DNA of 64,000 bases from an uncultured Bryobacterales bacterium (lineage in GTDB: Bacteria > Acidobacteriota > Terriglobia > Bryobacterales > UBA6623). A program made the position numbers and the translations under genes. The notes under the pieces were generated by a model. The model was not told where the DNA came from, made no database searches, and worked only from the letters and a program-made list of their open reading frames with translations. The stretch is taken from the NCBI GenBank assembly GCA_951813065.1, contig CATOTH010000005.1:372001-436000 (forward strand), in the 5' to 3' direction. Below are positions 51,049 through 55,005 of this stretch, one piece after another (the first letter of the stretch is position 1; each line of letters starts with the position of its first letter).

Positions 51049-51609
51049 GGTTGGGCCAGGGAGGCAGAGGCGCTTGACGGAGTTTGCGGTGCGGTTGCAT
51101 GCCTTGGACCCTTTACCGGACAACAGCGAGCGCGAGGAGCTACTGCGCGTCGTAGCGGTTCGTCCGCCAGCCCTTCCAGATTCTCCGAGGTCTCCGATCG
51201 CGCGCATCGGCTGGGTTGGGCGCGAACGAGGAGATGGGTGTTGATCTTGGACATTGCACGTCCCGCACCATGCACCCGGCGGTGGTGTCGTCCACGAGAC
51301 CATCCGTAACCGCGGGCAGGCGCTGGAGCAGTGTTGCGCCTATCCGTGACTGCCGCAGATTGGCACCACACCGGAGTGTCCCCAATCAGACCGCATGACG
51401 CGATGTGGCCGAACTCGTGGGACATCCGGGCTGAAGAGAGCCGCCCGTGATCAGACCGCCACACAGACGGACAATGAGCCCTGGAACCGCGAGGCGAGGG
51501 TGGATGGATGGCTTCGGACTCGACAAGGAGACGCGTGTAAGATTGCCCAATAAACGACACGTCCACTGGCGTCGGAACGAGCCCTTGCAACGTGCCAAAT
51601 CCTGGGACG
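51049..51609. other. 561 bp without a recognisable gene
   Basis: One plus-strand frame reads LTEFAVRLHALDPLPDNSER but stops soon and I cannot place it. No other signal seen. Confidence 0.4.
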
Positions 51610-51878
51610 AAGTTCGAGTGGCATGACGACAAGAACCTAACCATGGTCAGAAAGCACGGAATCCGTTTCGAGGATGCAACGCGCATCTTTGAGCCGGATG
51701 GACTGGTCCTAAGGGGGGAACCGGAGAAGAGGATCGCTGAACAACGATCGGTCTGCTGGAAGGCAGAGTGATCACAGTCGTCTTCACCGAGCGTGCAGGG
51801 CGAAGACGCCTCATTTCGGCCCGACCGGCCCGCCGAAGCGAACGACGCACCTACAATCGGAGCAGGTCAACGATCCAG
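51610..51878 (+). pseudogene. BrnT-type toxin gene with a one-base frameshift
   Basis: One frame reads FEWHDDKNLTMVRKHGIRF and EDATRIFEPDGLVLRG and stops at 51771. The next frame takes over at about 51745 with IGLLEGRVITVVFTERAGRR and RLISARPARRSERRTYNR. Joined, they give the BrnT fold (FEWD..KN..N..KHGI.FE.A..IF ... RLISARRA). The switch is near 51744-51747 and needs one missing base. No ATG precedes FEWHDD; an ATG at codon 12 is internal. The toxin is therefore inactive unless frameshifting occurs. Confidence 0.75.
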
Positions 51879-52104
51879 ATGGGCATGCGAGCACCCAAGC
51901 CTACATGGGACGAGTCCAAGCAGGTCCCCGATGAGGAGATCGATTTCAGTGATATTCCCGACACAGAGCCGTGGGAATGGAAATACGCGCGCCCGATGAG
52001 TCACCCTGAAGCGTTCTCGAAGGAACTGAGCGAGGCCTACGATGCGGAATGGCGCGCGCGCAAGCGACGGGGACGGGGACGAGAAGACAAAGCCAACAAA
52101 CTCA
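51879..52104 (+). pseudogene. BrnA-like antitoxin gene interrupted by an IS66-type element at its last codons
   Basis: From the ATG at 51879 the frame reads MGMRAPKPTWDESKQVPDE, EIDFSDIPDTEPWEWK and RARKRRGRGREDKANKL. The EIDFSDIP segment is typical of short BrnA-type antitoxins. At 52105 the mobile element begins. Removing the element and one target copy restores AAACTCAATGACTAA, so the original protein ended KANKLND and a stop two codons after the insertion. With the element in place the frame runs on into it for about 45 foreign residues to 52238. The antitoxin may still work with this altered tail. Confidence 0.7.
52097..52104. repeat. 8-bp target-site duplication, left copy (CAAACTCA)
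   Basis: Identical to 54668-54675 on the other side of the element. Eight base pairs is the usual IS66-family target duplication length. Confidence 0.93.
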
Positions 52105-52124
52105 GTAACTGCTCAGGCCCCTTC
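52105..52124 (+). repeat. Left terminal inverted repeat of the IS66-type element
   Basis: Sequence GTAACTGCTCAGGCCCCTTC; exact inverse of 54648-54667. Looser similarity continues to about 52250, including a shared TTCGTGTCGGGAACC segment. Confidence 0.92.
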
Positions 52125-52298
52125 GACTACTTATCTTCTCGCCTAGCATCCCGCGGATCAAGGCTTGCGCTGGTTTCCGGCCAGCTTTCGAATGGTTGTT
52201 CGTGTCGGGAACCTGTCGCGGGCCGGAAACGGTCCTGACCGGCAATCGGCTGCCTTGCGGACCCAGCCGGGTGTCGACTTGCCACTCAGAGCAACTTC

Positions 52299-53780
52299 TC
52301 AGGCGTCTTCAGTGGGGGTCGGGCCATAGTGTTGAGTGAGCGTGTCGACAGCGTGCCCGGCGAGCGCGATTTGAATGGCGACGAGAGGATTGTAGCCGAG
52401 CGCGGCCATCGACTGCAGGTAGCTGGAGATGCGGGCATAGGCCTCGCCGTAGGCTTGCGTTCGAAAGCAGCCCGAGACTTTGATCTTCACCTTAGCCATG
52501 CGCAGTCCGCGCTCTCCGGCATTGTTGGTGAAACTCACCTTCGGATCGTGTAGGAAGCGCAGCACGGAGGCCTCGTGCTTGGCGAGCCGCTCGTGCAGGT
52601 TGTGGGCATCGGATTTGGCAAGCCGCCCGCGTTGGCCCTTGGTGCGCGGCGGGATCGCGGGCAATTCCTTGGCACCTTGGGTCAGGATGGTGCGGTAGCG
52701 CTTGCGCAAGGCCTTGCAGGCGGCTGCGCTCAAGACCTTGGCCTGGCTGCGATTGACTTTGTGGCAGGCCTCTTGCAGCAGGGCTTTCAGCAGGCGCGCC
52801 CAGCGGTACTTGTTGGACTCGACAACGAAGGTCAGTTCGCGGACCAAATGCGCATTGCATAGAGCGTGCGTGCATTGCTCGTAGCTGAGGTACGAGGCCC
52901 AGCAGTCGTGCACCAAGGTGCCGCGAAAGCGGGGGATCAGGCCGATCGCCTCGATCGCTGCCTTGCCGCGCCGGCGATGCAGGAACTTGACCGTCAGCGA
53001 CCCATCGGTGAGGATATGCAGCCAATGGTTCTTGCCGTCCACGCGCAGGCCGGTTTCGTCGGCATGCAAGGCCGGCGAGGCCAGCAGGTGGGCGCTGGCG
53101 GCGGCTTCCCAAGCTTGCAGGGACTCATGTAGGCGGCGGATGTAGCCCAGGCAGGTGGCCTCGGACAAGCGCAGGCCGGAGACCGCCTTGACCAGCTCGA
53201 CGGTGCGCCGCAGGGAGAGCATATGGGCCACCAACAGGTTGATGATGAAAGCCTGCAAGCCGCTGCCATACTGCACCGGCCCGGGCATGTTGGCGGGGAA
53301 GGCTGCCTTGCTGCGGGCCTGGCAGTCGGGGCATTGCTTGACCTCGGCCTCGACACGCTGCTCGATGACCTGAAACACGATGTCGTACAGGATGCGGCGT
53401 TCCCGGTGCAGCGCAGCGACAGCCGACAGATCGCCGCCACAGCTGTCGCAGGCCTCGACGGTGAGCGTTTCCTCAAGGGTGACTTTCTGCAGATTGGGGC
53501 TGGTCAGCTCGTTGGGCTTGGCTGGCTTGCGGCCCGGCTTGGCGCGCTGCGCGGTGGCGTCCTCCGCGTCCATCTGCGAGGGCGGAAGGCTGGAGTTGCG
53601 GCTGGTCTTGCGGGTGGTCTTTTCGAGCAAGACCGCCAGCAGCAGGGTCAGCAAGGGCATCAGGACGCGGAACACGGCGTCGGCTTCGGGCGACACTTTG
53701 CCGCTCTTGCGCAGATCCTCGATCTGCTCCTTGGCGGCCTGCAGTTCCTCGCGCAGGTACTGGTCGTTGACGGTCGGCAT
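52299..53780 (-). CDS. tnpC: IS66-family transposase
   Basis: The 493-residue protein starts at the ATG at 53780, whose A is shared with the stop of the methylase gene (TGATG). It has an N-terminal leucine-zipper-like helix, a proline/Lys-rich stretch (TSRNSSLPPSQMD), a zinc-finger with CDSCGG and CPDCQ pairs, and the DDE core. The core shows ASPALHADETGLRVDGKNHWLH (first Asp), LVHDCWASYLSYEQCTHALCNAHLVREL (second Asp) and SFTNNAGERGLRMAKVKIKVSGCFR (Glu). It ends near the SYLQSMAALGYNPLVAIQIAL tail region common in IS66. All domains look intact, so the element could be active. Confidence 0.95.
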   Translation of the reverse strand: MPTVNDQYLREELQAAKEQIEDLRKSGKVSPEADAVFRVLMPLLTLLLAVLLEKTTRKTSRNSSLPPSQMDAEDATAQRAKPGRKPAKPNELTSPNLQKVTLEETLTVEACDSCGGDLSAVAALHRERRILYDIVFQVIEQRVEAEVKQCPDCQARSKAAFPANMPGPVQYGSGLQAFIINLLVAHMLSLRRTVELVKAVSGLRLSEATCLGYIRRLHESLQAWEAAASAHLLASPALHADETGLRVDGKNHWLHILTDGSLTVKFLHRRRGKAAIEAIGLIPRFRGTLVHDCWASYLSYEQCTHALCNAHLVRELTFVVESNKYRWARLLKALLQEACHKVNRSQAKVLSAAACKALRKRYRTILTQGAKELPAIPPRTKGQRGRLAKSDAHNLHERLAKHEASVLRFLHDPKVSFTNNAGERGLRMAKVKIKVSGCFRTQAYGEAYARISSYLQSMAALGYNPLVAIQIALAGHAVDTLTQHYGPTPTEDA

Positions 53781-54457
53781 CACTCGGCCTCGACCGCCAG
53801 CAGGGCGGCCAGCACCGCCAGCCGCTCGCCCGGCGGCATGGCCGCATAGCGCTTGCCCCAGCTGGCGGCCTTGCGCTGGATGCACTGGCGCTGCGTGAAG
53901 TTCTGGCCGGCATAGCGGTGCCAGTGCACGTGGCGCCCCGGCGCGAAGTTGCACCAGACCTTCTCGGTCACCACCCCGGCCTGGTTCATCACCTGCAGCG
54001 ACAGGCTGTGCCAGTCCGGCAGGGCCCGCTCGTAGAGCTCGCAGGGGTAGCCGGAGAGCATCACCGCGCAGGGCAGGCTCTTGAGCAACGCCAGCAGTGC
54101 TTCGTGATCGGCCTGCGTGTAGTCGTAGCGGTAGCGACGCTGCGACTTGCGCGTGCGCTGCAGATAGGGCGGGTCGGAGTAGACCAGCTCGTCGCCGGCA
54201 AACGGGAACTCGGACAGGAAGCGGTGGCAGCAGCCGTGCACCAGTTCCACCTCGTAGGGGCCGCGAAACGCCCGGATCGAGCGGGCGTTGCGATCGATGC
54301 CAATGTTGCGCAGGGCGGGCGGCTTGCGCTGCATGATCGCGCCGCCGCCGAGATGCGTCTCAATATAGGTGGCATGCGGCGGCATGGCCGCGATCAGCGC
54401 TTGGCACAGACCCGAGGTCGCCTTCGATCCGTACCATGCACCCATCGCCGCGGCCAC
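53780..54457 (-). CDS. D12-class DNA adenine methylase carried by the IS66-type element
   Basis: The 225-residue protein has the N6-adenine methylase motif DPPY in YSDPPYLQRTRKSQ (95-98) and a SAM-binding motif I variant YIETHLGGGAIM near residue 31, close to the EPFAGGGA of Dam-like enzymes. GSKATSGLCQALIAAMP near the start is like the GxK...L...I...P opening of D12 methylases. The order motif I then DPPY fits the alpha class. It lies within the terminal repeats and is the promoter-proximal gene, directly coupled to the transposase. It may modify the host or element DNA to control transposition. Confidence 0.88.
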   Translation of the reverse strand: MAAAMGAWYGSKATSGLCQALIAAMPPHATYIETHLGGGAIMQRKPPALRNIGIDRNARSIRAFRGPYEVELVHGCCHRFLSEFPFAGDELVYSDPPYLQRTRKSQRRYRYDYTQADHEALLALLKSLPCAVMLSGYPCELYERALPDWHSLSLQVMNQAGVVTEKVWCNFAPGRHVHWHRYAGQNFTQRQCIQRKAASWGKRYAAMPPGERLAVLAALLAVEAE

Positions 54458-54647
54458 TCCAGAAGGAGTCCTTACTCAGCAGCATAGGCGCTCCCAGCGC
54501 GGTTGTCAAGCGGACCATCCGCTGGGTCTGAAATACCGCTGATCGCCGGTCAGGACGGTTCCCGACACGAACCACAGTTCGCAACCTGGCCGGACCCAAG
54601 CGCAAGCATTGATCCGCGTGCCGTCAGGCGAAAAGACAAGTAATCAA

Positions 54648-54667
54648 GAAGGGGCCTGAGCAGTTAC
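54648..54667 (-). repeat. Right terminal inverted repeat of the IS66-type element
   Basis: Reverse complement of the left repeat over 20 bp, beginning with GTAA at the outer end. Confidence 0.92.
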
Positions 54668-54675
54668 CAAACTCA
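54668..54675. repeat. 8-bp target-site duplication, right copy (CAAACTCA)
   Basis: Matches 52097-52104 exactly. The following ATGACTAA restores the original end of the brnA-like gene. Confidence 0.93.
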
Positions 54676-55005
54676 ATGACTAAATTGGTGCCGGCCTATT
54701 GAACGGGCATTCGGACATGAGCGCTATCGCGCACGGTTAGGACTGGTGCGTCGATTGATCGGGGCTACTGGCAGCCTGACGATTCGATGGCGAAGGAAAC
54801 GCGGCACGCGGATGACGTGCCAATGTGACTATTCGTGCGCCGCCCTACTGGAGCAGTCTTCCGCAGCTCTTTGAGCATCCCCTCCAAGCCAACCTCTTCT
54901 TTCACTCAAGCAAAGCGAATCATCCGAGCCGCCTTGGTTGACCTGTCCCAACCGGTCCTTCGGCGGCTGCGCTAGGCTGAACGGACCGGCATCCAGAGGC
55001 TCGAG
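54676..55005. other. 330 bp without a recognisable gene
   Basis: After the restored brnA stop codon, no frame or repeat stands out before the membrane-protein gene. Confidence 0.45.

Follow-up and report, generated by a model that had tools for sequence, protein, structure and literature searches.

Why would an insertion sequence place a DNA adenine methylase ahead of its own transposase? This question is raised by positions 52105-54667 of the window, that is, the whole 64,000-nucleotide stretch of DNA from an uncultured Bryobacterales bacterium that was analysed here. An earlier note, made from the letters of this DNA, had proposed that the methylase could time transposition by methylating the ends of the element, or could protect it from restriction on entering a new host.

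Results

An exactly bordered element with two genes

Positions 52105-54667 constitute an IS66-family insertion sequence with two genes inside, the methylase gene followed by tnpC, both on the minus strand. Its terminal inverted repeats, GTAACTGCTCAGGCCCCTTC at the tnpC-distal end (52105-52124, plus strand) and its counterpart at the methylase-proximal end (54648-54667, minus strand), match at 20/20 positions, and GTAACTGCTCAGG is present at both tips, which thus begin with GTAA as IS66 ends do. On either side lies an exact repeat of the 8-bp target duplication CAAACTCA (52097-52104 and 54668-54675), so that the borders given in the earlier note are correct to the base. Beyond the 20-bp ends, imperfect inverted repeats, which the note had not mentioned, extend over ~180 bp. 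Their left arms (52125-52284, comprising 52125-52213 and 52219-52284) face right arms at 54504-54645 (54504-54569 and 54557-54645), with 81% complementarity over 89 nt between 52125-52213 and 54557-54645 and 73% over 66 nt between 52219-52284 and 54504-54569. The distance from tip to methylase is ~200-240 bp in the window's sub-lineage versus ~100-140 bp in most other group-a (window-type) elements.

The tnpC gene (52299-53780, minus strand) encodes an IS66-family DDE transposase of 493 residues, counted from the ATG at 53780, which matches PF03050 (E 2e-42) and in a profile search lies above the cut-off of NF033517 (254.5 bits, cut-off 180); it has no match in viral contigs. Neither TnpA nor TnpB is encoded between the ends, and the element is thus not of the canonical three-gene form; TnpC-only members (the ISBst12 group) count as IS66 family. 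Among the open reading frames of the element there is no third gene, hence no cognate restriction enzyme beside the methylase. As the note had described, the methylase is promoter-proximal and coupled to tnpC through TGATG, where its stop codon and the tnpC start have one base in common.

The insertion falls within the final codons of a gene (window 51592-52104 and 54676-54684) that lies downstream of a BrnT-like toxin gene. The interrupted gene is probably the antitoxin of this toxin, and the BrnT-like gene is split by a frameshift, PF04365 matching in two pieces. When the flanks are rejoined, the frame is open through to the stop, as in an uninterrupted relative (L121). The host genome holds three copies of the element, 100% identical, the other two on contigs 2 and 11, with three different exact 8-bp duplications (CAAACTCA, GTGACTCG and CTTTGCTG) as is typical of IS66, and TnpC relatives above threshold are absent from six genomes of the same genus. 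Because the copies are identical and bear their own duplications, the six congeners have none and the flanks rejoin to an open frame, we regard the insertion as recent, and the two further copies strengthen the note's suggestion of recent movement. No exact duplication was seen at those group-a IS66 ends that are readable in MAG contigs. The host genome (G000) also contains two decayed remnants of this lineage, on contig 5, 2914-3248 (L013), and on contig 9, 89585-90230 (L014), which reveal that the lineage was already there at an earlier time. The contig 9 remnant was considered as a working variant without methylase and rejected, being a decayed deletion from which most of both genes is gone.

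A compact methylase without the Dam recognition domain

The gene ahead of tnpC (53780-54457, minus strand; start at GTG 54457 or ATG 54445) is predicted from PF02086, a structure model and an alignment with E. coli Dam (EcoDam) to encode a compact D12-class N6-adenine DNA methylase. The protein of 225 residues has the motifs GGG and DPPY, the latter at 95-98, and narrowly passes PF02086 (22.1 bits, cut-off 22), which together place it in the D12 class, and it stays well below the cut-off of the curated Dam family TIGR00571 of NCBIfam (27.8 bits, cut-off 114.85). The structure model, of moderate quality (mean pLDDT 75), is nearest to E. coli Dam and T4 Dam (VIA-align Z ~15, 141 residues), its residues 11-172 spanning EcoDam 14-270 with 141 aligned; the PDB contains no direct sequence match. 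From motif I to DPPY the protein measures 58 residues, as against ~143 in EcoDam, with ~85 residues missing in the alignment. The Dam-type target recognition domain is absent, and the C-terminus bears an additional, conserved helical tail; phage and plasmid relatives have the same compact layout. The label "Dam-like" in the earlier note is thus apt for the fold and the catalytic motif, and does not extend to the Dam family cut-off or the recognition domain.

Since the domain carrying Dam's GATC contacts is absent, GATC may not be assumed as the target motif, and with no conserved GATC at the ends of relatives we rejected it. A Hia5-like non-specific methylase was a further candidate, and in the portions of the literature consulted there is no link between it and this methylase family. 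The host genome encodes no D12 methylase other than the element's own; it carries a PF01555 methylase.

Recurrent pairing of methylase and transposase

The search for such gene pairs that the note had proposed reveals that the pairing recurs across several phyla: 23 loci in genome contigs encode a relative, in Acidobacteriota, Alpha-, Beta- and Gammaproteobacteria, Thermodesulfobacteriota and Myxococcota. Wherever a TnpC copy in the genomes searched reaches at least 40% identity and its upstream region is readable, the methylase immediately precedes it in the same orientation, in a set reached largely through methylase searches. A sample of 396 genomes was not chosen in that way; there, TnpC at this identity occurs in two genomes only (the host's own and G113), and 2/2 have the methylase. 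More distant IS66 TnpCs of 31-34% identity (L046, L047 and, from a class sample, L099) have no methylase nearby. Related elements lacking the methylase would have spoken against the note's proposal, and no intact close one was found among genomes mostly sampled through the methylase.

Protein distances of methylase and TnpC correlate over nine complete element pairs (Mantel r 0.88, p 0.0006), i.e. the two co-diverge. For the methylase, dN/dS lies at 0.09-0.25 in most pairs (exceptions 0.38 and 0.75), and for tnpC at 0.18-0.21 in three close pairs; by these ratios, purifying selection constrains the methylase to about the same degree as the transposase. Together with its recurrence, this argues that the pairing is not chance cargo.

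A dyad in the methylase promoter

Upstream of the methylase, most transposon copies read have TTGACA, 17 bp and TATGCT or TACGCT; in the window, the -35 element TTGACA lies at 54504-54509 and the -10 element TATGCT at 54481-54486, 17 bp apart and both on the minus strand. A dyad RTAG-N10-CTAY begins 2 bases past the -35 element and its right half overlaps the -10 element. TAG-N10-CTA was found upstream of the methylase in 13/19 transposon copies versus 0.3 in shuffles and in 8/22 plasmid or phage copies versus 0.4, figures whose significance the shuffle statistics overstate, since related copies do not have independent upstream sequences. The -10 element itself fixes part of the right half-site. 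When spacings of 4 to 16 were tried in the transposons, none but N10 came near that count. Six complete dyad-bearing elements have exactly one site each, in the promoter and never at the ends. In the window copy, the dyad is degraded to CGCG-N10-CTAT, and the left half-site is likewise absent from its nearest kin (L015, L016, L024, L017, L020 and L023). No clear dyad of this kind is present in L093, L105, L108, L109, L111, L113 and L119.

The identical or a nearly identical position is occupied by ATCG-N10-CGAT in IncP-1 plasmids, a Pseudomonas plasmid and L032, and by ACCG-N10-CGGT in a Klebsiella phage. In 23 aligned promoters, which were selected for showing the dyad, 91% of cells pair as compared with at most 60% in slid controls, and nine cells are altered on both sides, a number reached by 0/500 shuffles. 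In the transposons, plasmids and phages with the dyad, the methylase alone stands beside all these promoters, and for this reason we infer that it may be the protein that reads the dyad; a regulator of the host or one independent of the element could also bind it.

Some plasmid promoters are more elaborate. The IncP-1 upf31.0 promoters (L114, L115, L116 and L117) have the dyad CAGCATCG-N10-CGATGCTG and, farther upstream, its core once more, and Shewanella, Acinetobacter and Photobacterium plasmids have tandem dyads 34-36 bp apart. In a Rhodoferax MAG (L032, 5001-6487), a methylase of 49% identity overlaps an OGG-type DNA glycosylase gene at TGATG behind the ATCG-N10-CGAT promoter, and no transposase match is found there.

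Cassette exchange between transposon families

Methylases 65-72% identical to that of the window precede three other kinds of IS66 transposase (L018, partly read, L025 and L069) and, in L026, an ISKra4 transposase (NF033572, 345 bits versus 205). L026 is an intact insertion in a PEP-CTERM-type gene, with ends of ~16 bp and a 9-bp duplication. The cassettes of L025 (IS66) and L026 (ISKra4) are 87% identical in DNA between the -35 element and the stop codon of the methylase, and their flanks are unrelated; the ends of the carriers differ too, being GTAACT... in IS66 and GGGTGCGG... in ISKra4. Methylase gene and promoter thus seem to travel as one cassette between unrelated transposons. The C-terminus of the L025 methylase, VASLNTPSL, is left over from the start of a group-a tnpC; this scar shows that promoter and methylase moved jointly, and it suggests which way that transfer went. 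The transposon methylases, including the ISKra4 copy and those of the other IS66 groups, form one clade with support 99/99. Outside this clade falls the methylase of L040 (504-2582), 44% identical and followed by an IS66-like transposase fragment, a pairing that is possibly independent. The part of the literature that was searched yielded no IS66 with a methylase, no ISKra4 with a passenger methylase and no description of methylase cassette exchange between the two families.

Discussion

We favour a reading in which the window element is an autonomous TnpC-only IS66-family insertion sequence, the front half of whose transposase operon is now a self-repressing promoter-methylase cassette with a burst on entry, over timing at the ends or pure anti-restriction; judged from sequence comparison, we give this reading as a whole slightly less than an even chance. 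The methylase would recognise the promoter dyad, either in dimeric form or through methylation of the half-sites, and repress its own promoter. Upon entry into a cell free of the enzyme, the promoter would be open and a burst of methylase and transposase would follow; as the enzyme accumulates, the promoter would shut and transposition would drop to a low level. The cell's DNA would be marked by the enzyme as well. Such a self-regulating module fits better than end methylation because the cassette is independent of the ends, its position is fixed and its promoter is conserved. In the window's own element the switch may not operate, the left half-site being lost, and in this sub-lineage the copy may be free of repression or rely on a different site. 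More tentatively, and as a possibility that we consider rather less than probable, the cassette might spread between unrelated transposon families and impose on them an entry-sensing switch, and the same module would run on conjugative plasmids and phages, with co-changed half-sites and a fixed 10-bp spacing.

The strongest rival is that the methylase is anti-restriction cargo, marking donor DNA such that carrier plasmids and phages survive restriction in the next host, with the coupling to tnpC being a convenient promoter. This is compatible with self-regulation and the two are not exclusive, yet as the explanation of the locus we hold it to be somewhat unlikely. Consistent with it, 130/172 plasmids with a methylase relative are conjugative according to PLSDB typing, P2-like phages carry relatives, the annotation of the IncP-1 relative upf31.0 reads putative adenine methylase, the cassette is not tied to particular element ends and the host is devoid of another D12 methylase. 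However, cargo of this kind explains neither the fixed place in the operon upstream of the transposase nor the long co-divergence with tnpC, and the methylase lacks a known restriction partner or target motif. A passenger without any role in transposition, hitch-hiking as in other gene-carrying insertion sequences, appears very improbable. Insertion sequences with passenger genes do exist and the exchange between families demonstrates that the gene is separable, but the methylase is under purifying selection about equal to that on the transposase, co-diverges with TnpC and keeps a constant promoter-proximal position, and no intact close relative of the element lacking it turned up in genomes sampled mostly through the methylase.

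The remaining alternative is a methylation clock of the kind the note had proposed, in which the element, its host having no Dam, would supply a methylase itself and would fire upon hemimethylation of its ends or promoter. The lack of any D12 methylase in the host besides the element's own would fit, as would a GATC located 51-53 bp from both tips of the window element, inside the inverted repeats, and the precedent of IS10, IS50 and IS903, which act with host Dam (PMC9296519). Yet this near-end GATC is not conserved among relatives, the Dam recognition domain is missing and the host has the PF01555 methylase. The proposal is further weakened by a cassette that serves elements with unrelated ends and by a conserved dyad located in the promoter instead of the ends; altogether, we deem such a clock improbable.

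If the self-repressing cassette is real, at least two transposon families have acquired the same methylase-driven switch, and how transposition is controlled when a new host is entered becomes testable with one promoter and one enzyme. As a working hypothesis, the switch would also extend to the upf31.0-type methylases of IncP-1 plasmids, which are widespread but unexplained.

Several known systems resemble parts of this element. With the TnpC-only (ISBst12-like) IS66 elements it has in common a PF03050 TnpC, GTAA ends, an 8-bp duplication and the lack of TnpA and TnpB, whereas here the first gene of the operon is a D12 methylase. Transporter IS, i.e. insertion sequences with passenger genes such as IS1595 and others, likewise hold a non-transposase gene between their ends; here, in contrast, this gene is upstream of the transposase, has its own conserved promoter and is common to at least two IS families. 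As in IS10, IS50 and IS903, for which the Dam methylation precedent is restated in PMC9296519, adenine methylation is linked to the transposase promoter, but those elements use host Dam, while this one brings its enzyme and no conserved GATC was found. The enzyme shares the catalytic fold and the DPPY motif with E. coli Dam, T4 Dam and DpnM, and differs from E. coli Dam in having DPPY at 95 instead of 181, no GATC-contacting domain and an extra C-terminal helical tail. Finally, the upf31.0 family and its plasmid and P2-like phage kin represent the same compact enzyme, 41-49% identical and without the Dam recognition domain. Their promoters have a similar layout, with a dyad of 10-bp spacing as in the relatives of the element, whereas their half-sites differ (ATCG/CGAT in IncP-1) and, in the records read, they form no operon with a transposase.
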